A stretch of DNA of 64,000 bases from Halorubrum sp. PV6. Lineage in GTDB: Archaea > Halobacteriota > Halobacteria > Halobacteriales > Haloferacaceae. The stretch's first letter is position 1, and every line of letters starts with the position of its first letter. A program made the position numbers and the translations under genes. Under the pieces are notes generated by a model. That model did not search any database and had not been told where the DNA came from. It worked only from the letters and a program-made list of their open reading frames with translations. Shown piece by piece: positions 5,722-56,207 of this stretch. The stretch is from the NCBI RefSeq assembly GCF_003990725.2, contig NZ_CP030064.1:2232001-2296000 (forward strand), in the 5' to 3' direction.

Positions 5722-6485
5722 CGGCGAGCGAGACGACGCCGGAGCCGTCGTTCGCCGGCGACACCGTGCTCGTCACCGGCACGGCTCGGGGTATCGGCCG
5801 CGCCTGTGCGGTCCGCTTCGCCGAGCGCGGCGCGACGGTGGTCGGCGGCGACCGCCTCGACCAGTCGGAGACCGTCGCGGCCTGTACGGACCACGCGGGG
5901 GAGTTCGAGCCGGTGGACGCCGACGTGACCGACCCCGCGGCGGTCGCGGCGCTGGTCGAGCGCGCGGCCGACACCGGGCGCATCGACGTGGTCGTCAACG
6001 TGGCCGGGATCGTCGCCCGCGAGCCGATCGAGACCCACGACGGCGAGCCGTGGGAGCGCTCGATGGATGTCAACCTCACCGCGCCGTTCCGGATCGTCCG
6101 CGAGGCCGCGCCGCACCTGCGCGAGACCGGCGGCGCGATCGTCAACATCTCGTCGATCTACGGGCAGATCGGGGGGGCGGAGCGCGCTGGCTACGCCTCG
6201 ACGAAGGCCGGACTGGAGGGGTTGACGCGGGCGCTCGCCGCCGAACTGGGCGCGGACGGGGTCCGCGCCAACGCCGTCGCGCCGGGGTTCATCGAGACCC
6301 CGATGACCGCGCCGTACGCCGAAGACGACGCGGCGCGCGAGCGGTTCCGCGGGCTCGCGGCGCTCGACCGGCTCGGCGAGCCGACGGAGGTTGCGAGCGT
6401 CGTCACGTTCCTCGCGGGCGACGAGGCCTCGTTCGTCACGGGCGAGACGATTCTCGTCGACGGCGGGCGGGCCACGGTGGAGTGA
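5718..6485 (+). CDS. Short-chain dehydrogenase/reductase
   Basis: A 255-residue classical SDR. It has the cofactor motif TGTARGIGRAC near residue 20, NVAGIV, the catalytic Ser in NISSIYGQ and YASTKAG carrying the Tyr-x3-Lys pair, and ends with the usual FVTGETILVDGG. Such enzymes interconvert alcohols and ketones with NAD(P). It starts with GTG inside the stop of the FAD gene (GTGA overlap), so the two flavin and nicotinamide oxidoreductases form a coupled pair, likely successive steps in the same catabolic route. Confidence 0.92.
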   Translation: MTASETTPEPSFAGDTVLVTGTARGIGRACAVRFAERGATVVGGDRLDQSETVAACTDHAGEFEPVDADVTDPAAVAALVERAADTGRIDVVVNVAGIVAREPIETHDGEPWERSMDVNLTAPFRIVREAAPHLRETGGAIVNISSIYGQIGGAERAGYASTKAGLEGLTRALAAELGADGVRANAVAPGFIETPMTAPYAEDDAARERFRGLAALDRLGEPTEVASVVTFLAGDEASFVTGETILVDGGRATVE

Positions 6486-44722: not shown

Positions 44723-44921
44723 TCGAGCTCTGCAGTTTCAGACACGTTACAGATTCTGATACCGGCTCAGGGCGTTCGCGGATTGAACGTGGCGAGAGGC
44801 GACAAGAGCCCGTATAGTCTATTTTAAACCCGTAATTATCTCGTTTGCGGATGCCGCCCCGAGTATCACTCCTGATATTTAAATGCGTGTGCTTATTTGC
44901 GGACGGATGCGACGGAGTAGC

Positions 44922-45320
44922 ATGGAGCCGAGCGAACGATGGACGATCCGAGTCGACGACGGCGTGGTCGTCGTCGAGTTCCCGCACGGGACGCGGCTCT
45001 CGCCGTCGGACGGCGACACGCTGCTCGACCGCTGGCGGACGCTGATCGCCGAGCCACGGGTCGAGGCGGTCGTGCTCGTCGTGCGGACGGCGCGCACCTG
45101 CTCCGACGCCGCTCGCCGGACGCTCAGACTCGCCGCGCGGGGGGCCGCAGAGCGCGGCGTCTCGCGGTTCGCGGTGGTCGCAGAGCGACCCAAGCGGCGC
45201 TACCTCGAACAGACGATCGACATCGAGGGTATCGAGACCGAGCCGTTCAACGACGACGCGGCCGCGGTACGGTGGGCGAAGCACCCGGCCGAGCGGGCCG
45301 CAATCGTCGCCCCGGAGTAG
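44922..45320 (+). CDS. Enoyl-hydratase-like or STAS-like short protein of unknown function
   Basis: A 132-residue protein. VDDGVVVVEFPHGTRLSPSDGDTLLDRW followed by VEAVVLVVRTARTCSDAARRTLRLAARGAAERGVSRFAVVAERPKR gives alternating strands and helices that fold like STAS or a minimal crotonase half; neither is certain. No catalytic set is visible. The ATG before EPSERWTIRV is preferred because an upstream in-frame ATG overlaps the TATA-like GATATTTAAATG. It runs toward the convergent phosphohexomutase gene. Confidence 0.65.
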   Translation: MEPSERWTIRVDDGVVVVEFPHGTRLSPSDGDTLLDRWRTLIAEPRVEAVVLVVRTARTCSDAARRTLRLAARGAAERGVSRFAVVAERPKRRYLEQTIDIEGIETEPFNDDAAAVRWAKHPAERAAIVAPE

Positions 45321-47448: not shown

Positions 47449-48057
47449 TTAAAAAGAGATCCAGTCGGAGGGCTGGCCGACCCGCCCGCGAACGCGGAAC
47501 TCCCGGCCGTCGCCTTCGACGCGCGTCTCGGCGATGACGTCGAACGGCTCGTGAAGCGTGTGGACCACCTGCTCGTCGTGAGCGGTCGAGTTGACCACGC
47601 CGACGAACGGCCACCCGACGCCGGAGGTCTGTGAGGTCATCACGCGGGTGAACCGGTAGATGCGTTCGGGCTCCCAGTACATCAGGAGCTGCGAGAGCGA
47701 GTAGATGCCGACGGCGCGGTCGCGCCCGGCGGACGACTCGACGATGTCGGTGAACTTGATGCCGATGTCGGTGAGGTTGCCCGCGCTGGCGACGTACTTG
47801 GTCGTCGGCGTGTCGTCGCGCTTGTCGCCCTGCTCGTGTGTCACGCAGTCGACGACGACCGCGTCCTCGCCGGCGCGGCCGGTGATCGCCTCGTAGTCGT
47901 CGCGGACCTTCTCCGCGGTGCGGCCGGTGGAGATGATGACCGGCGCCGTCGACCACTCGGCGAGCAGGCGGTTGAACAGGTCGTACTTCCCGCTCATCGG
48001 CGGCCCGGTGACGAGCACGCTGTCGGCGTCACGGACAGCGTCGGGAAGCATACTCAT
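47449..48057 (-). CDS. KaiC/RecA-like protein with degenerate P-loop
   Basis: A 202-residue RecA-fold protein. The P-loop is VLVTGPPMSGKYDLF: Lys is present but Ser/Thr after it is Tyr. Further motifs are AVVVDCVTHEQGD as the Walker B region and an Ser/Thr-rich GNLTDIGIKFTDIV. Such short proteins occur in haloarchaea near chemotaxis or regulatory genes and may belong to a family such as DUF7504 (recalled, not verified). It probably pairs with the KaiC-like ATPase upstream. An alternative start is two codons downstream. A near-palindrome GGGTTTTACCGTAAACCC precedes it at the core promoter. Confidence 0.75.
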   Translation of the reverse strand: MSMLPDAVRDADSVLVTGPPMSGKYDLFNRLLAEWSTAPVIISTGRTAEKVRDDYEAITGRAGEDAVVVDCVTHEQGDKRDDTPTTKYVASAGNLTDIGIKFTDIVESSAGRDRAVGIYSLSQLLMYWEPERIYRFTRVMTSQTSGVGWPFVGVVNSTAHDEQVVHTLHEPFDVIAETRVEGDGREFRVRGRVGQPSDWISF

Positions 48058-48100
48058 TTGTGTGAGTTGAGTGGGTTTACGGTAAAACCCTTCCGAGGAA

Positions 48101-48496
48101 TCACTTCCGGAGCATCGACGGGAAGTCGAGCGACGACGGCGGGCCTTCGCGGGGCCGTCGCGTGAGTGTCAGTTCTGTTATCGCGCCGGGGAGCGCGGCC
48201 GAGATGGGCGCCCCGCGCGGCGAGCCGGCGCCGTCGACCAGCGTCTTCCAGACCTCCTCGGCGCTGTCGGCGTCGGCCGACGCGGCGGCTTCGAGCGCCT
48301 CGGTTCGTCCCTCGTCGTACGCGAGTTCGATCAGGCTTCGGTCGTAGGCGTTCTCGAAGGCGTCCAAGACCCGCTCCAGTTCGGTCGGGCGGCTGCTTCC
48401 CACCCCGTCGGCGACGCCGAGCGCGAACGCCCGGTCGACCGCCTCCTTGCGGGTGAGGTCGTCCCACTCCGTGCCGAACGTTCGGTCGTACATCAC
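48101..48496 (-). CDS. Alpha-helical protein between two RecA-like genes
   Basis: A 131-residue protein without recognised family. Helical segments include DDLTRKEAVDRAFALGVADGVG, ELERVLDAFENAYDRSLIELAYDEGRTEALEAAA and AEEVWKTLVDGA. The last 30 residues are Pro/Arg-rich. It overlaps the KaiC-like gene by 4 bp (ATGA), so the two are translationally coupled and likely interact. Confidence 0.7.
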   Translation of the reverse strand: MMYDRTFGTEWDDLTRKEAVDRAFALGVADGVGSSRPTELERVLDAFENAYDRSLIELAYDEGRTEALEAAASADADSAEEVWKTLVDGAGSPRGAPISAALPGAITELTLTRRPREGPPSSLDFPSMLRK

Positions 48497-49188
48497 TGTC
48501 TCACCGTCGCGGCCGAGCCGACTCGGAGCCCGCCGTCGGTGAACTCGACGTCTTGAATGTCCGTGTTGACGTCGGTCCCGCGCATCTTCAACACCTGAAT
48601 CCCGCGGGTCATACCCTCGTCTTCGAGGTAGTTGTGCATGAAGACGACGCCGTGCGCGAGGTAGTGTTCCTCCGAGTAGGCGCTCGGATCGGTCATCTCG
48701 GAGATGAGCAGCGTGGTCGCGTCGGTCCGCTTCAACGAGGAGAGCAGCTGGATCATCGTGTCCTCGTCGTCGTCGAGGAGGAACCGCAACAGCATCGTCG
48801 AGTCGAAGACGACGCGGTCGATGTCCCGAGAGTTGATGAAGCCGGTGAGCCGGTTCGTCACGCCCGAGTGGTCCCGTCGCTCGCCCGGTAACCCGAAGAA
48901 CCGGCGCCCGTCGGACGAGAACGAATCGAGGAAGGTGACGCGGTCGGTGTCGAGCGCCCGGTCGAACCCGAAGTCGTACTCGCCCATGTCGCGCCGGATC
49001 CCCTCCTTCGTCTCGTGCATGCTGATGTACAGCACGTCTTCGCCGTTGCGGGCGCCCTCCGCGGCGAACTGAGAACAGAACGTCGTTTTGCCGCTGCCCG
49101 GCGGACCGCTCACAACGTAGAGGCGATGCTCCGGGAACCCGCCGTCGACGAGATCGTCAAACCCAGGGACGCCGCTTGAGGCGCGCAT
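48493..49188 (-). CDS. KaiC-like RecA-family ATPase
   Basis: A 231-residue single-domain KaiC-like protein: VPGFDDLVDGGFPEHRLYVVSGPPGSGKTTFCSQF with an intact Walker A (about residue 30), a Walker B RVVFDSTMLLRFLL, and a Glu-rich loop SMHETKEGIRR. The C-terminal half contains LKMRGTDVNTDIQDVEF, typical of KaiC-like proteins. It resembles ATPases that act as signalling switches, such as ArlH of the archaellum, but it is not ArlH. It starts the leftward trio and its own TATA box lies 23-32 bp upstream. Confidence 0.88.
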   Translation of the reverse strand: MRASSGVPGFDDLVDGGFPEHRLYVVSGPPGSGKTTFCSQFAAEGARNGEDVLYISMHETKEGIRRDMGEYDFGFDRALDTDRVTFLDSFSSDGRRFFGLPGERRDHSGVTNRLTGFINSRDIDRVVFDSTMLLRFLLDDDEDTMIQLLSSLKRTDATTLLISEMTDPSAYSEEHYLAHGVVFMHNYLEDEGMTRGIQVLKMRGTDVNTDIQDVEFTDGGLRVGSAATVRQ

Positions 49189-49220: not shown

Positions 49221-49358
49221 TTGCCGCCCGGTTCTCACGGCTGAGAACCGTTTCGGGGGATAGCGAGAGAGTGGGATTCGGGGAATGGCGAGAGAGCGGA
49301 AGTGAGACGTGGCTGCCCGGCTGGAGCGCCGCGGTGGACCGGCGACGGATCGACCAAG

Positions 49359-49844
49359 TTACGCGTCGTCGCCCTCGTCGCCGAGGTCGGCGTCGAGGTC
49401 CTCGATGTCGTCGATGTCGTCGACGTCCGGGGAGACCCAGACCACGAACCGGTCGTCGGATTTGACGATCCCGTTGACGCCCTCGTCGTTGACGGTCGTC
49501 GTCTGGTCGACGTCTTCCGGCGCGACGTCGCGGACCTGGAACACCTCGTCGACCATCCAGCCGACGGTGCCGCCCTCGTCGATCTCGGCGTCGTCGAACA
49601 CGACGATTCGCTCGCGGGGCCCCTCCTCGTCGATGGAGAAGAGCGTCTTCGGGTCGACGATCGTCGTCGTGCGACCCCGCAGATCCATGACGCCCTCGAC
49701 GTGGTCGGGGGAGTTGGGGATACGGGTGAGCTCGCCGGCGTCGACGATCTCGTCGATGACGCCGATGTCTAAACAGTACGTCCCGTCGCCCAGCCCGAAC
49801 TCCAGTACCTTCGTCGGTTCGGCCTCCGTTTCCATGGCTGCCAT
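49359..49844 (-). CDS. cheW: Chemotaxis coupling protein CheW
   Basis: A 161-residue CheW: VLEFGLGDGTYCLDIGVIDEIVD, RIPNSPDHVEGVMDLRGRTTTIVD and IVVFDD, followed by VGWMVDEVFQVRDV, all conserved in CheW. It links methyl-accepting transducers to CheA. The tail is acidic (DVDDIDDIEDLDADLGDE). It is divergent from the cheB-cheA operon; a Met five codons earlier is an equally plausible start. The TATA-like GGTTATTGG (49867-49876) is 23-32 bp from the chosen start. Confidence 0.95.
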   Translation of the reverse strand: MAAMETEAEPTKVLEFGLGDGTYCLDIGVIDEIVDAGELTRIPNSPDHVEGVMDLRGRTTTIVDPKTLFSIDEEGPRERIVVFDDAEIDEGGTVGWMVDEVFQVRDVAPEDVDQTTTVNDEGVNGIVKSDDRFVVWVSPDVDDIDDIEDLDADLGDEGDDA

Positions 49845-49913
49845 GGAAGCAACTGCAGTGACGGTGCCAATAACCGTGTCCCCTGAATTATCAGCCGTGA
49901 TTACCGGGTCCGT

Positions 49914-49923
49914 GCATTTATGC
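49914..49923 (+). promoter_or_regulatory. TATA box of the che operon
   Basis: GCATTTATGC, itself palindromic, lies 24-33 bp before the cheB start codon; it also faces the cheW promoter 38 bp away. Confidence 0.5.
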
Positions 49924-49946
49924 TGAGTCTGGGCGCGTTTTCGGAC

Positions 49947-51056
49947 ATGAGCAGGACGACGGACCGGCGCGGTGGTCGCGACGACGCGTTGCGGGTCGTC
50001 GTCGTCGACGACTCGCCGTTCATGCGAGGGTTGATCTCCGACCTCTTGACCGACGCGGGGGTCGCGGTCGTCGGAGAGGCGGGGGACGGCGCCGAGGCGC
50101 TGTCGGTGATAGACGAGACGCGTCCGGACGTCGTGACGATGGACGTCGAAATGCCAGGCATGGGGGGATTAGAGGCCGTCGAGCGGCTGATGGACGAGAC
50201 CCCGACGCCGGTGTTGATGCTCTCGGCGCACACCGCCGAGGGCGCCGAGGTGACCTTCGAGGCGCTCGAACGCGGCGCCGTCGACTTCTTCTCGAAACCC
50301 GGCGGCGAGGTCTCGGCCGGCGTCTCGCGCGAGTCGGACCGGCTCGTCGAGGCCGTCCGGTCGGTCGCCGACGCCGACCTCGCCGCGGCGACCCGCGACC
50401 GGCGCGAACGGGCGGCCGGGAAGGGCCCGGAAACGACCGCGTCGGCGGCGTCGACGGGCACCGCGTCCCCCGCGACCTCCGAGGTCGACGGCCCGCTGAC
50501 GGTCGTCATCGCCGCCTCGACCGGGGGGCCGAACGCGGTGGAACGAGTCATGTCGGCGCTGCCGATGACCGACTGTCGGATCGTCATCGTCCAACATATG
50601 CCCGAAGCGTTCACCTCGCGGTTCGCCGACCGGCTGGACGAAGCATCGGCGTACGACGTGCGCGAGGCGAGCGACGGCGCCCGGATCGGCTCCGGCGAGG
50701 CGCTCGTCGCCCGCGGCGGGAGCCACACGCGGATCGACAGCTACCGAGCGGGACGGCTCCGGATCAAACTCGTCGACGACGACTCGCAGTCGGTGACGCC
50801 GGCCGCGGACGTGACGATGCGGTCGGCGGCCGAGGTCGTCGACGGCCCGCTCGTCGGCGTCGTGTTGACCGGGATGGGGGCCGACGCCTCCGACGGAATC
50901 CGCGCGATGGCCGACGCGGGAGCGCGGACCATCGCACAGAGCGAGGACACCTGCGTCATCTACGGGATGCCGAAACGCGCGGTCGAGACGGGCGGTGTCG
51001 GCACCGTGTGCGATCTCGACGACGTGGCCACCGCGATCGTCGGGGGTGAGGCCTGA
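49947..51056 (+). CDS. cheB: Chemotaxis protein-glutamate methylesterase CheB
   Basis: A 369-residue protein with a receiver domain (about 15-130; VVVVDDSPFMRG, the phospho-acceptor in TMDVEMPGMGG and FFSKPGG) and a CheB methylesterase domain (about 175-365; the catalytic Ser in AASTGGP, His in VQHMPEAFTSRF, Asp in LTGMGADASDG). It removes methyl groups from transducers after phosphorylation by CheA. The chosen ATG (before SRTTDRRGG) is 24-33 bp from the TATA box. The stop and the cheA start overlap by 1 bp. Confidence 0.97.
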   Translation: MSRTTDRRGGRDDALRVVVVDDSPFMRGLISDLLTDAGVAVVGEAGDGAEALSVIDETRPDVVTMDVEMPGMGGLEAVERLMDETPTPVLMLSAHTAEGAEVTFEALERGAVDFFSKPGGEVSAGVSRESDRLVEAVRSVADADLAAATRDRRERAAGKGPETTASAASTGTASPATSEVDGPLTVVIAASTGGPNAVERVMSALPMTDCRIVIVQHMPEAFTSRFADRLDEASAYDVREASDGARIGSGEALVARGGSHTRIDSYRAGRLRIKLVDDDSQSVTPAADVTMRSAAEVVDGPLVGVVLTGMGADASDGIRAMADAGARTIAQSEDTCVIYGMPKRAVETGGVGTVCDLDDVATAIVGGEA

Positions 51057-53314
51057 TGGACTCCCACCGCGCCGCGTTCGTCGCCGAGGCCGAAGACGGG
51101 ATCACGGACCTGAACAACGCCCTCCTCGCCCTCGAAGCCGACCCCGAGGACAGCGAGGCGATGGACGACGTGTTCCGGGTCGCACACACCTTAAAAGGAA
51201 ACGCCGCGGCGATGGGGTACGAGGACGTCTCCGACTTCGGACACGCCCTCGAAGACTTGCTCGACGCGGTCCGACAGGGCGAGCGCGAGGTGACGCCGGA
51301 GCTGATGGACCTGCTCTTCGAGGGGGTCGACACTGTCGAGGCGATGGTGTCGGAGATAGCCGACACCGGCGAGATCTCGACTGACCCCTCGGACCTCGAA
51401 GGCCGTCTCCGCGAGATGGAGGAGCACGGAACCGTCGGCGGCGGTACCGACGACGGCGCTGACGCGGACGGCGAGGTCGACGACGGGGAACTGGACGACT
51501 CCGACGGCGCTAACGACGACGACGAAAGCGAAGCCGAGGAGGAACAGGATGCCGTTTCCGTCACCGATCTCCCGGACGCAGCGGCGTCCCTCGACGCCCC
51601 GGTCGTCTACGCCGACGTGACGATCGGCGAGAGTTCGATGGCGGGCGTCGACGCCGCGCTCGTGTTACAGGCGCTCGACGGGCAGTTCGACGGGTACGTG
51701 ACCGTTCCCGACGCCGAGTCGCTGGAAGACGGGGAGTACGACGAGGGGTTCGACGTGTTCGTCGCCGACTCCGACCCCGACGTCGTCGCGGAGGGGCTCG
51801 GCGCGCTCACGCAGGTCGAGTCGATCGCGACGGCGTTCGCCGACGGCGAGGCGGACGCACCGGCCGAGACGGGCGAAACGGACGCATCGGCCGAGACGGG
51901 CGAAACGGACGCATCGGCCGAGCCGGTCGAGGCATCGAGCGAGGCGGGCGAGACGGCAGCCGACGAGGACGCCGGCGCCGACGATACCGAAGACGACGAC
52001 ACCGACGAACCGGCGGCAGAGACCACAGAGGAGGACGACAGCGCGTCCGACACCGGCTCCGACCCCAAGTCCGGCTCCGACTCCAAGTCCGGCGACGAGA
52101 TCAAATCGATCCGGGTCGACGTCGATCAGGTCGACGAGCTGTACGGGCTCGTCGAGCAGCTGGTGACGAGTCGGATCAAGCTCCGACGCGAGCTCGAGGA
52201 GTTGAACGCCCAGTCGGACGCGTTGGACGAACTCGACAAGCTCGCGTCCAGCCTGCAGGACACCGCGATGGACATGCGGCTCATCCCGTTCTCGCAGGTG
52301 TCCGACTCGTTCCCGCGGCTCGTTCGCGACATCTCGCGGGACCTCGACAAGCGGATCGACTTCGACATCGAGGGCGACGACGTGGAGCTCGACCGCACCA
52401 TCCTCACGGAGATGCGCGACCCGCTCGTCCACGTCCTGCGGAACGCGGTCGACCACGGTATCGAGTCGCCGGAAGCGCGCGAGGCCGCCGGGAAGGAGCC
52501 GACCGGGCACGTCAGGCTCACCGCCGAGCGCGAGCGCGACCACGTGATCATCGAGGTCGCGGACGACGGCGGCGGGCTCGACCCCGACCAACTGCGCGAG
52601 AAGGCCGTCGACGAGGGCGTCAAGACCCGAGAGGCGGTCGAGGCCATGGAGGACGACGAGGTGTACGACCTCGTGTTCCACCCCGGCTTCTCCACCGCGG
52701 AGGAGGTGACGGACGTCTCCGGGCGCGGCGTCGGCATGGACGTGGTCCGAACGACGGCCCGCGACCTCGACGGCTCCGTCTCGGTCGAGAGCGACCCCGG
52801 CGAGGGGACGACGGTCCGGTTCCGGCTCCCCGTCACCGTCGCCATCGTGAAGGTGATGTTCGTCGACGTGGGCGGGACGGAGTACGGGATCCCGATCAAG
52901 TCGATCGCCGAGGTCGCCCGCGCGGACGGCATCGAGGAGGTCCACGGCGACGAGATCGTCCGCCACGAGGAGGATCTCTACCCCGTGATCCGGCTGGAAG
53001 ACCGGCTGGAGAACGCGGGCGCCGCCGTCGCGGAGGCGGGGGCCGGAAGCGACGAGACGGCGGTCGGCGAGGGCGACCCCGAGACGGCTTCCGCGTCGGC
53101 TACCACCGACGGCGGCGTGACCGACGACGGGATGCTCGTGCGGATCCGCGAGGAGACGCGACAGGTCGCGCTCCACTGCGACGCCGTACTCGATCAGGAG
53201 GAGGTCGTCGTGAAACCGCTCGACGGGCCGTTGTCGGGGACGCCGGGGCTCAGCGGCACGGCGGTCCTCGGCGACGGCGACGTCGTTGCCGTCCTCGACG
53301 TGGTGAGCCTATGA
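51056..53314 (+). CDS. cheA: Chemotaxis histidine kinase CheA
   Basis: A 752-residue CheA. P1: the phosphorylated His44 in VAHTLKGNAAAMG. Residues about 130-345 form a response-regulator-docking and low-complexity acidic region (several TGETDASAE and KSGSDS repeats). Dimerisation P3 begins with VDVDQVDELYGLVEQLVTSRIKL. The P4 kinase shows LRNAVDHGIESPEAR, VADDGGGLDP and SGRGVGMDVV. The C-terminal P5 is CheW-like. It is coupled to cheB (1 bp overlap) and cheR (4 bp overlap). Confidence 0.97.
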   Translation: MDSHRAAFVAEAEDGITDLNNALLALEADPEDSEAMDDVFRVAHTLKGNAAAMGYEDVSDFGHALEDLLDAVRQGEREVTPELMDLLFEGVDTVEAMVSEIADTGEISTDPSDLEGRLREMEEHGTVGGGTDDGADADGEVDDGELDDSDGANDDDESEAEEEQDAVSVTDLPDAAASLDAPVVYADVTIGESSMAGVDAALVLQALDGQFDGYVTVPDAESLEDGEYDEGFDVFVADSDPDVVAEGLGALTQVESIATAFADGEADAPAETGETDASAETGETDASAEPVEASSEAGETAADEDAGADDTEDDDTDEPAAETTEEDDSASDTGSDPKSGSDSKSGDEIKSIRVDVDQVDELYGLVEQLVTSRIKLRRELEELNAQSDALDELDKLASSLQDTAMDMRLIPFSQVSDSFPRLVRDISRDLDKRIDFDIEGDDVELDRTILTEMRDPLVHVLRNAVDHGIESPEAREAAGKEPTGHVRLTAERERDHVIIEVADDGGGLDPDQLREKAVDEGVKTREAVEAMEDDEVYDLVFHPGFSTAEEVTDVSGRGVGMDVVRTTARDLDGSVSVESDPGEGTTVRFRLPVTVAIVKVMFVDVGGTEYGIPIKSIAEVARADGIEEVHGDEIVRHEEDLYPVIRLEDRLENAGAAVAEAGAGSDETAVGEGDPETASASATTDGGVTDDGMLVRIREETRQVALHCDAVLDQEEVVVKPLDGPLSGTPGLSGTAVLGDGDVVAVLDVVSL

Positions 53315-54120
53315 GCGGCGAGAGCGAGACCCCGTTCGAGGGAGTCCTCAGACAGATCGACGACACCGTCCCGTTCGAACCGGGGTACTACAACGAGTCG
53401 TACCTCGACCGGCGGATCACCGCTCGGATGCGGCGGCGCGACACCGAGTCGCACGCCGAGTACGAGCGCCTGCTCCGGGAGGACAGCGACGAGCGCGAGG
53501 CGCTGATGGACGCGCTCACGATCAACGTGACGGAGTTCTTCCGGAACCCGGAGATGTGGGACGTGCTCCGCGACGTGCTCCGCGAGCGAACGAGCGAGCA
53601 GCGCCGAGTCCGCGTCTGGTCGGCGCCGTCGGCTGACGGTCGGGAGCCGTACTCCGTCGCGATGCTGGCCTGTGACGACCCCGAGATCGACGAGTCGCGC
53701 GTCGAGGTGCTCGGCTCGGACATCAGCGAGGAGGCGCTCGACAGCGCCCGAACCGGCACGTACCACACCACTCGGACGACCGACATCGCCGAGGAGTTGG
53801 CGCCGCTCTCGGACCCCGACCGCTACGTGGAGCGCAACGAGGACACCTTTCAGGTCCGGCCGGCGGTCCAGCGGCTCGTGACCTTCGAGACGCACGACCT
53901 GATCCGGGACGGCGCGCGCGACCCCTTCGACGTGGTGCTGTGTCGGAACCTGTTGATCTACATCGACGTCGACCACAAGGGGGCGCTTTTCGACACGCTG
54001 GAGGCGTCGCTCGTCGAGGACGGCGTCCTCGTCCTCGGGATGACCGAGAGCGTCCCCCCGGACCGCTCGGACAGATACGAGCCGATAGACAAGCGGCGGC
54101 GGGTGTTTCGGAGGGTCTGA
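53311..54120 (+). CDS. cheR: Chemotaxis protein methyltransferase CheR
   Basis: A 269-residue SAM-dependent enzyme that methylates transducer glutamates. N-terminal all-helical part YLDRRITARMRRRDTESHAEYERLL, then INVTEFFRNPEMWDVL, VWSAPSADGREPYSVAMLACD for SAM binding, and DVVLCRNLLIYID. The usual Gly-Cys of that SAM motif is replaced by Ala-Pro-Ser here. It overlaps cheA by 4 bp and the HEAT-repeat gene by 1 bp. Confidence 0.96.
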   Translation: MSGESETPFEGVLRQIDDTVPFEPGYYNESYLDRRITARMRRRDTESHAEYERLLREDSDEREALMDALTINVTEFFRNPEMWDVLRDVLRERTSEQRRVRVWSAPSADGREPYSVAMLACDDPEIDESRVEVLGSDISEEALDSARTGTYHTTRTTDIAEELAPLSDPDRYVERNEDTFQVRPAVQRLVTFETHDLIRDGARDPFDVVLCRNLLIYIDVDHKGALFDTLEASLVEDGVLVLGMTESVPPDRSDRYEPIDKRRRVFRRV

Positions 54121-55334
54121 TGTCGCTGTACCAGCACGCCCGAGACGGGAACGCCGAGCGTCTCAGGGACGCCATGGGCAGCGACAGCCCCGCGGTCCGG
54201 AAGCGCGGCGCCGAGTTCCTCGGCGAGGTCGCCGACCCGAGCGACCAGGCGTCCATCGACGTGCTCTTGCGCGCTGCGACCAGCGACGACGACCCGGAGG
54301 TCCGCGGGGCCGCGGTCGACGCCCTCGACGAAGTCGGCGAGGGCGCGCTCGAACAGCTGCTCTCCGAGCTCACGGGCACGAGCCAGTCGGAGGCCGAGTG
54401 GGTCACCGCCCGGAAGTTCGCCCGCGCGCTGCAGGCCGACCGCCCGGAGCTCCGGATGGCCGCCGCCAAGGCGCTCGGGCGGCTCGACGACGCGAGCGGC
54501 CTCCAACACCTCATCGAGGCGCTGACCGACGAGGACCCTCGCGTCAGGCTCCGCGCGTGTCAGGCCTGCGGGACCTTCGCCGACCCGCGAGCGGTGCCCG
54601 GACTGTCGGAGCGGCTCGAAAGCGACGGCGAGTTGAAGGTCCGCCGGTCGGCCGCCAACGCCCTCGCGAACGTCGGCACCGATCAGGCGCTCGCGCCGCT
54701 GCTCGGCCTGCTCGAAGAGAGCGACGAGTCGCTCCGGCGAATCGCCGCCGGCGCGCTCGGGAAGGCGAACAACCCGGAACCGGTCGAGCCGCTGGCCCGC
54801 GCGCTCGGCGACGAGAGCGCGGTGGTGCGCAACGCCGCGGTGTACTCGATCATCGAACTGCTCTCGAACGTCCCGACCCAGCAGAGCCACGCGGTCCGCG
54901 ACCGGGTCGTCTCCGAGCTGAAACAGGCCGACGACGAGACCGTCGTCGAACCGCTCGTCGAGATCCTCACCGACGGCCAACAGAACCGCCAGCGCCGGAA
55001 CGCGGCGTGGATCCTCGGTCGGGTCGCCGAGCCGGACTCGGCGCTCGCCGTCGAGGCGCTCGCCGACGCGCTCGCCGACGAGGATCCGCAGGCCGCACAG
55101 TTCGCGGCCACCAGCCTCAAGAGCCTCGGCGGGCCGATAGTCGAGGACCGACTGTTAGACCGACTCGGCACCGAACACCCCGAAGACGCCCGCGCGAAGG
55201 CGGTGTTCGTCCTCGGGCAGATCGGCGGCCAGGAGACGCTCAATCGCTTAGAGGAGTTCACCGACGACGACAGCTCCGCGGTCCGGAAGCGGGTGTTCTC
55301 GGCGGTTTCGAAGCTCCGGGCGGGGGGACCCTAA
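54120..55334 (+). CDS. HEAT-repeat protein of the chemotaxis operon
   Basis: A 404-residue protein built of about ten HEAT/PBS-lyase-type repeats, visible as recurring pairs such as ADPSDQASIDVLLRAATSDDDPEVRGAAVDALDEVGEGA and LRIAAGALGKANNPEPVEPLARALGDESAVVRNAAVYS. A related HEAT-repeat protein lies in the che region of Halobacterium between che genes, so a role as scaffold or adaptor of the signalling complex is likely (inference). The ATG overlaps the cheR stop by 1 bp, which fixes the start. Confidence 0.88.
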   Translation: MSLYQHARDGNAERLRDAMGSDSPAVRKRGAEFLGEVADPSDQASIDVLLRAATSDDDPEVRGAAVDALDEVGEGALEQLLSELTGTSQSEAEWVTARKFARALQADRPELRMAAAKALGRLDDASGLQHLIEALTDEDPRVRLRACQACGTFADPRAVPGLSERLESDGELKVRRSAANALANVGTDQALAPLLGLLEESDESLRRIAAGALGKANNPEPVEPLARALGDESAVVRNAAVYSIIELLSNVPTQQSHAVRDRVVSELKQADDETVVEPLVEILTDGQQNRQRRNAAWILGRVAEPDSALAVEALADALADEDPQAAQFAATSLKSLGGPIVEDRLLDRLGTEHPEDARAKAVFVLGQIGGQETLNRLEEFTDDDSSAVRKRVFSAVSKLRAGGP

Positions 55335-56207
55335 ATGTCGGGCGGAAGCGGCGAGTACAAGGTCGCCGACACGCAGGCGCGGTTCGCGGTCGCCGTCCGC
55401 GACGGGCGGAAGGTGAGCGACGTCTCGTGGACGCCGGGCCGCGTGCTCCTGTCGAACCGCCGGCTGATACTGGCCGGCAACGACGGGAAGCGCACGGTTC
55501 CGCTCTCGAAGCTCCAAGGGCTCGGGGGGCGGCACGACGCCAACCAGTCGGTCGCGCGCGTGTCGAACTACGTCAGCTTCGACCTCGGCGATCAGGTGCT
55601 GCTCGTGGCCGCCTCGGACCACGAGTCGTTCGAACTCAACGTCTACCGGGCGCTGCTCGACCAGCGGACCGTGACCGCGAAACACCCCGCGATCGAGGGC
55701 GGCGTCGTCCAGGAGACCCAGTGGGAGCAAGCGCGGGTGAAGATCGACGAGAACGGGCTCAACGCCGCCCTCGAAAGCGGCGCGTTCGTGAAGTTCGACC
55801 TCGACGACATCAGCGGGCTCGACGCCGCGAAACGCACCGTCAACGGCGACAAGAAGCCGGTGATCGAGGTCTCACACACCGACGACGAGGGGACGAGCAT
55901 CGAGACCCACCTCGCCGGCGACCCCAACCGGATGCGGTTCGTCGAGGCGTGGCTCCGGAAGGGAGAGGAGCGCTCGTCGACGAACGTCGACCTCTCCAGC
56001 CGCGACAGGGAGGTGTTGATGGCGCTGTACTCCGGGGTCTCGCCGTTCGAGATCCCGTCGTTCCTCGGGATGGACGTCGACGCCGTCGAGGAGACGTTCG
56101 AACGGCTCGTCGAACTCGAAGTGGTCGAGGAGGTGCGCGTGCGCCGCGAGGTGGCGCTCAACTCCCGCGGCCGCAACATCGCCAGCGAGGCGATGAACGA
56201 ACAGTAG
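55335..56207 (+). CDS. cheF: Archaellum-chemotaxis adaptor CheF
   Basis: A 290-residue protein of the archaea-specific CheF family (DUF439), which links CheY-type signals with the archaellum. N-terminal PH-like beta domain: WTPGRVLLSNRRLILAGNDGKRTVPLSKLQGLGG. The C-terminal part is helical: SSRDREVLMALYSGVSPFEIPSFLGMDVDAVEETFERLVELEVVEEV, resembling a winged helix. It starts directly after the stop of the HEAT gene (no gap). Confidence 0.9.
   Translation: MSGGSGEYKVADTQARFAVAVRDGRKVSDVSWTPGRVLLSNRRLILAGNDGKRTVPLSKLQGLGGRHDANQSVARVSNYVSFDLGDQVLLVAASDHESFELNVYRALLDQRTVTAKHPAIEGGVVQETQWEQARVKIDENGLNAALESGAFVKFDLDDISGLDAAKRTVNGDKKPVIEVSHTDDEGTSIETHLAGDPNRMRFVEAWLRKGEERSSTNVDLSSRDREVLMALYSGVSPFEIPSFLGMDVDAVEETFERLVELEVVEEVRVRREVALNSRGRNIASEAMNEQ

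Follow-up and report, generated by a model that had tools for sequence, protein, structure and literature searches.

In the genome of Halorubrum sp. PV6, three genes on the minus strand occupy positions 47449-49188 of a stretch of 64,000 nucleotides from contig NZ_CP030064.1, which is referred to as the window. Gene 1 (48493-49188) encodes a KaiC-like ATPase of the CirD type, with 231 amino acids and a single RecA-fold domain (PF06745, 6.5e-42). Gene 2 (48101-48493) encodes a small helical partner protein, designated Mid, of 130 amino acids from its ATG start; at its fullest extent the open frame covers 48101-48496, or 131 amino acids. Gene 3 (47449-48057) encodes a DUF7504/DUF7090 protein of 202 amino acids with a degenerate P-loop (PF24336 and PF23365), which is an optional neighbour of the other two. 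Directly upstream of KaiC-Mid, in the same direction and after a gap of 170 base pairs (bp), lies cheW (49359-49844; PF01584, 1.4e-25), giving the transcription order cheW, KaiC, Mid, DUF7504 gene on the minus strand. The KaiC stop codon and the Mid start codon overlap in TGATG, a usual sign of coupled translation, which is predicted for this pair; 43 bp lie between the end of Mid and the start of gene 3. Divergent from cheW and cirD, a plus-strand block of cheB, cheA, cheR, a HEAT-repeat protein gene and cheF (49920-56207) was identified by profile matches and is conserved in the loci compared.

A preliminary description, made from the sequence alone, had reported the three minus-strand genes, an intact P-loop in the first (GPPGSGKTT), a degenerate one in the third (GPPMSGKY), a small helical protein between them and the position beside the che genes. 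All of this was confirmed: the open reading frames are present, the middle protein is helical in its structure model and overlaps the KaiC stop, and the group is flanked by cheW and the divergent cheB-to-cheF block. In 39 loci fetched with gene 3, from Halorubrum and close kin, the order of divergent cheB followed by cheW-KaiC-Mid-DUF7504 recurred in 38, the exception being locus L036, so that the arrangement is not a matter of chance. The HEAT-repeat gene (window 53940-55334) between cheR and cheF was observed at the same position in other che loci.

The distribution of the genes was followed in a class-wide survey of 194 haloarchaeal genomes with a completeness of at least 90%. KaiC was counted at E values up to 1e-60 and Mid at E values up to 1e-3; the markers were PF04283 for CheF, ArlH at E values up to 1e-50 and PF01917 for archaellin at E values up to 1e-15. 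Loci were fetched by matches to KaiC, Mid or gene 3, and 64 of them, 23 from Halorubrum and with one genome counted twice, were examined at the level of open reading frames. Numbers preceded by g, f, G and L are the genus, family, genome and locus codes of this sample.

KaiC was identified in 113 and Mid in 114 of the 194 genomes, and the two sets differ by genome G183 only. Each of the 115 KaiC matches in the 113 genomes is followed directly by Mid on its own strand, and the match ends are never more than 99 bp apart. The two open reading frames overlap or are no more than 6 bp apart in 60 of the 64 loci, one outlier being the split KaiC of L068. The profile search identified CheF in 128, ArlH in 156 and archaellin in 158 genomes. 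Mid is present in 113 of the 128 genomes with CheF versus one of the 66 genomes without it. A pure association of the pair with the archaellum was rejected, since 28 genomes contain ArlH and lack CheF, all 28 with archaellin, and neither the pair nor Mid was found in any of them. CheA (PF02895) was discarded as a marker of chemotaxis, because its profile also matches open frames of about 1,100-1,600 amino acids in genomes without CheF. Such frames with a CheA dimerisation domain, seen for example in G004, G030 and G042, perhaps belong to a second chemosensory system.

Five genera vary internally. The pair and CheF vary together in g2, g42 and g51, and g22 is the exception, with one CheF-containing genome devoid of Mid. 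For g9, the genome without CheF is G183 (93% complete), which keeps Mid together with a mere KaiC remnant, consisting of residues 102-228 in two frames and without the P-loop; no match to CheA, ArlH or archaellin was obtained in G183. A split KaiC frame is likewise present in G067, which contains CheF, and a broken frame alone is therefore not evidence. At L036, from a metagenome-assembled genome of Halorubrum, gene 3 adjoins the HAD gene whose place in the window is after cheF (L036 4659-6606). No che gene, KaiC or Mid was matched in the 6 kb upstream on this contig, the one searched from this assembly; gene 3, the lipoprotein gene and glmM are retained. A remnant similar to the cirD promoter (about 85% identity over 34-35 bp) with an ATG was identified at L036 5739-5798 between two gaps, which indicates that the losses of che and of KaiC-Mid flank this remnant and were not one clean block.

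The neighbourhood of the pair was also compared between genera. CheW is encoded immediately upstream of KaiC and in the same direction in g1, g5, g8, g9, g11, g12 and g14, and convergently to the pair in g13. In g31, g51 and g60, the gene immediately upstream on the same strand is cheD, and in g53 a cheD gene lies just downstream on the opposite strand; all of these CheD assignments were confirmed with Pfam.

Gene 1 matches PF06745 with 143.9 bits against a gathering score of 26.6, and both Walker motifs are intact. In an alignment of 38 family members, GPPGSGK, Asp129 and the KMRG motif are present in 38 of 38, Walker A and B being invariant except for one exchange of Thr to Ser; His58-Glu59, also found in all 38, aligns with the Glu-Glu pair of solved KaiC chains. 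By sequence, gene 1 is the orthologue of CirD from Haloferax volcanii, which has been designated HVO_2232 (PMC10869688). The quantitative polymerase chain reaction primers for cirD from Maschmann et al. (PMC3941300) fall inside the KaiC gene of the g6 genome G039 in the correct orientation, with 2 and 1 mismatches, and the reverse primer was located in seven of nine g6 genomes, always within the KaiC gene. The published flanks of cirD are an oxidoreductase and a hypothetical protein (PMC3941300). In g6, the gene upstream of KaiC groups with an aldo/keto reductase and, together with Mid, fits this description. Counting against the orthology, the exact primer pair with zero mismatches was found in none of 59 genomes.

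For Mid, a helical structure was predicted with a mean predicted local distance difference test (pLDDT) of 73.9. The N-terminal domain comprises approximately residues 1-90, with block values of 71-89 over residues 11-90. The tail is modelled with low confidence and is probably disordered; in the window protein it carries the C-terminal motif FPSMLRK, in short form P-x-[FL]-L. Among 41 loci from outside Halorubrum, the pattern [LRFYQ]-P-x-[FLMRI]-[LIR] was identified in the tail of 40, compared with 3.2 expected and 9 at most from shuffles, and the single Mid without it has KPSFLSR. The shuffle controls, for this motif as for the promoter core and palindrome described below, preserve single-letter composition only. 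In 29 of the 41 loci the motif lies within 6 residues of the C-terminus, and in 11 a further extension follows. Among the open reading frames of the window which pass the coding score, three others contain the motif, none of them near the C-terminus. The window protein matched no Pfam family and gave no NCBIfam match better than an E value of 0.12. With 46 members, only scattered matches with E values of 0.0078 or above were obtained against Pfam and NCBIfam, and no family. In a sample of 246 genomes from the phylum, all 23 matches to Mid belong to the order of the window, and none was seen beyond Halobacteria, the share of other classes in the sample not being specified.

The gene 3 product matches DUF7504 (PF24336) with 6.8e-26 and 92.3 bits against a gathering score of 27, and DUF7090 (PF23365) with 3.2e-8. 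In its P-loop, GPPMSGKYD, the Lys is kept and the Thr/Ser for Mg binding is lost; this position is occupied by Tyr in 17 and by Arg in one of 18 relatives, and there is no Asp at the apparent Walker B position. A distant similarity to KaiC was detected for the DUF7504 relatives, with PF06745 matched by three of the 18 and an hhalign probability of 90% over 71 columns. The structure model of gene 3 is poor (pLDDT 47.6). A DUF7504 gene adjoins KaiC-Mid in at least 35 of the 114 genomes with Mid, including six of the 41 loci with KaiC and Mid from outside Halorubrum (L064, L068, L092, L095, L096 and L098); at L089, its neighbours are Mid and what remains of a KaiC gene. Three genomes (G065, G123 and G173) have DUF7504 encoded behind cheW with neither KaiC nor Mid. 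The family is multi-copy, with six members in the genome of the window, and the gene 3 profile (E values up to 1e-20) matches 177 of the 194 genomes, with and without CheF alike. Gene 3 is not part of the core pair and is probably an optional modulator or a bystander. The preliminary description had considered linkage of the three genes in most genomes as decisive; this linkage was found for KaiC and Mid in every case and is not supported for DUF7504. At L091 (8686-10153) of G133, a genome without CheF, a DUF7504 gene was observed divergent from another KaiC-like gene (PF06745, 2e-50), and these two genes lie about 5 kb from ArlH.

Upstream of cirD, a perfect palindrome GGTTCTCA-N4-TGAGAACC was identified at 49230-49249, in which the TCA has position -56 relative to the start codon (the -56 spacings were calculated by hand from coordinates). 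The form GTTCTCA-N4-TGA-[AG]-AA is retained in 14 of 14 aligned loci from Halorubrum, Halobellus and a related metagenome-assembled genome, and behind it stands a box with TTA, which reads CTTAT in most of the rows. This form has one match in the window versus 0.08 expected. The identical 20-mer precedes cheY-cheC-cheD of the same genome (L116:3961-3980), and the palindrome in the divergent cheW/cheB promoter (49888-49903, TAATCA-N4-TGATAA) has the same TCA-CGGC-TGA core as that of cirD. Outside Halorubrum, 18 of 41 loci (13 of 31 genera) have a TCA-N4-TGA core in the interval from -75 to -35 relative to the start of KaiC, versus 0.27 in shuffles, and 17 of the 18 cores lie at -55 to -57. In the control region before Mid, the core was present in one of 41 loci. 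Archaellum and chemotaxis genes of Haloferax were shown to carry a binding site for CsmR, TATCA-N4-TGATA, upstream of their TATA boxes (PMC13286277), and several sites of the pair promoters have TATCA as their left half. The cirD palindrome is predicted from its sequence to be an operator of the CsmR type.

Some further sites were observed. The exact CsmR consensus occurs in the window at 44864-44877, before an open reading frame (44883-45320) whose product of 145 amino acids has no Pfam match. If the later ATG at 44922 is the start, the TCA lies at -56 as before cirD, and the gene is a candidate for a new member of the motility regulon. For cheB (49920-51056), the start is probably the later ATG at 49947, with the palindrome core at -56 from it, matching the spacing of cheW and cirD. 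In L116, a near-consensus site, TCTCACGACTGATA (6153-6188), is located just before a gene of the ArlC/DE type.

In Haloferax, a cirD deletion strain was reported to be non-motile and not archaellated (PMC13286277, published June 2026). With conditioned medium, the abundance of CirD drops along with that of CheY, CheW1, ArlA1 and ArlG (PMC12240190), and among rod-associated proteins CirD clusters with CheB and the transducers (PMC10869688). In the Halobacterium Che interaction study (PMC3579733), the new partners of CheA are PurNH and OE4643R, and no KaiC-like protein is named in the text available. A partner protein, the che linkage, the phyletic pattern and the operator are not mentioned in the available parts of the published CirD accounts. 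Among the literature matches listed, nothing was found on Mid or gene 3, nor any entry with HVO_2231, HVO_2233, DUF7504 or DUF7090. Of the "new signal unit connected to motility" proposed in the preliminary description, the connection to motility is supported for KaiC and Mid, on the basis of the phyletic pattern, the che neighbours, the shared palindrome and the published cirD deletion, and is not supported for the trio. The novelty was not borne out for the ATPase, an orthologue of CirD with a published deletion phenotype. It stands for the partner and for the chemotaxis link, which were not found in the accounts available.

Since KaiC travels with Mid and the pair occurs almost only in species with CheF, the two probably work together as a single switch in steering. 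It was considered that CirD and Mid represent a dedicated two-protein module, a nucleotide switch with its adaptor, of the haloarchaeal chemotaxis and archaellum system, and the chances of this being correct are judged to be even. In such a module, CirD-Mid would be switched on along with the che genes through the CsmR-like operator. CirD would probably form a ring and switch between states with ATP. Mid would probably be seated on CirD through its helical domain, and the P-x-[FL]-L motif in the Mid tail would recruit a component of chemotaxis or of the archaellum. As a result, assembly or maintenance of the archaellum would be restricted to the motile and chemotactic state.

A number of observations weigh against a dedicated module. 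The Fisher value of 1e-35 for the association of CheF with Mid overstates the independence of the sampled genomes, which are related, and lifestyle could account for part of the association. Of the 128 genomes with CheF, 15 are devoid of the pair, including all six sampled from f6; the pair is thus common, though not needed for archaeal chemotaxis everywhere. As in many genera, no che gene was identified next to the pair in the loci of f2, f3, g2, g6, g16 and g19, some of which extend about 1.5 kb per side. The strict TCA-N4-TGA core was not found in 23 of the 41 loci, including those of f4 and the g6 locus L094; in L094, from the genus closest to the CsmR studies, a variant differing by one base was recognized by eye. 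Comparison of the Mid model, itself of moderate quality, with the PDB gave a best Foldseek E value of 2.1 and a best VIA Z score of 4.5, neither of them a convincing match. On the physiological side, the loss of archaella in the cirD deletion is a defect earlier than chemotaxis signalling, and slight motility was regained in the csmR cirD double deletion (PMC13286277), which implies that CirD is not simply structural. As an observation in its own right, the f6 genomes (G023, G122, G146, G161, G171 and G175) contain CheF and ArlH, with KaiC-Mid in none of the six, and this family may be a natural group in which something replaces the pair.

Among the alternatives, the best supported is that CirD-Mid mainly regulates gene expression, as a light- or quorum-responsive relative of KaiC, so that archaella are lost indirectly via transcription and the proximity to che genes reflects co-regulation. 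Light and darkness affect the cir genes (PMC3941300), cirD is upregulated in a csmR deletion, a cirD deletion shifts stationary-phase transcripts (PMC13286277), and CirD falls strongly with conditioned medium (PMC12240190). However, the effect of the cirD deletion on CsmR targets was minimal (PMC13286277), and a general regulator would not predict that the pair is lacking in all 28 genomes with archaellin and ArlH and without CheF. On balance, this explanation is possible, if on the unlikely side.

Haloferax archaella need CirD, and archaella in genomes without CheF do without it, which suggests that chemotaxis is coupled to archaellum assembly. In a stronger version of the proposed module, CirD-Mid might act as a licensing checkpoint, sensing the chemosensory system by its state or its presence and allowing the archaellum to be assembled; this is regarded as unlikely, slightly more so than the regulator. 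If true, it would provide a direct link from chemotaxis to the assembly of an organelle, together with a pairing of KaiC with an adaptor that was found described nowhere in the available parts of the literature examined.

A role of CirD-Mid in positioning or scaffolding polar chemosensory arrays and archaella, in a MinD/ParA-like manner with the Mid tail as a tether, would be in line with cheW or cheD adjoining the pair in several lineages. A KaiC-like ring, as predicted for CirD, with a low-confidence and probably disordered tail would also suit a scaffold, and haloarchaeal motility and chemotaxis proteins were reported to be spatially organised (PMC6509185). Nevertheless, Mid has no match to a known domain, CheW-like or other, and the complete loss of archaella on cirD deletion (PMC13286277) exceeds what mislocalisation would cause, making such a role improbable. 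Least of all is expected from the heterocomplex put forward in the preliminary description, in which the small protein would bridge the active KaiC and the degenerate DUF7504 ATPase. The fixed order in Halorubrum and close kin and the distant KaiC similarity of DUF7504 would fit it, but it is regarded as highly improbable: gene 3 was seen to adjoin the pair in 35 of the 114 Mid-bearing genomes (a lower bound), accompanies cheW in three genomes with neither KaiC nor Mid beside it, persists at L036 despite the absence of che, KaiC and Mid and occurs irrespective of CheF.

KaiC-like ATPases are widespread in archaea, mostly without an assigned function, and the need of archaella for CirD lacks a mechanism. 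The occurrence of Mid beside every sampled KaiC copy, the phyletic rule and the shared promoter element provide entry points to this mechanism. Should the dedicated module of CirD and Mid be right, it would explain how haloarchaea tie steering to propulsion, and it would name an overlooked family of chemotaxis-associated proteins.

In comparison to known systems, gene 1 shares with the CI domain of cyanobacterial KaiC the domain itself, Walker A and B and the K-x-R-G motif. Circadian KaiC has two tandem domains and a catalytic Glu pair, whereas gene 1 consists of one PF06745 stretch in 231 amino acids, with His in place of the first Glu. ArlH also belongs to the KaiC superfamily and is involved in motility, but an identity of gene 1 with ArlH was rejected (37.6 bits versus a cut-off of 215 for NF052589), and a separate ArlH gene is present at 2.598 Mb. 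DUF7504/DUF7090 proteins, of which gene 3 is a member, are mostly not seen linked to KaiC-Mid. CirA of Haloferax volcanii is a KaiC-like motility regulator, as gene 1 would be. However, primer sequence, gene location and phenotype all spoke against an identity with CirA, which was rejected: the cirA gene lies among the archaellum genes, its primer encodes LYLTFE in contrast to [YF]-x-x-x-HE in the gene 1 family, and the cirA deletion is hypermotile (PMC13286277), the opposite of the cirD deletion. CirD itself has been published as a stand-alone clock homologue, whereas its Halorubrum orthologue sits behind cheW.

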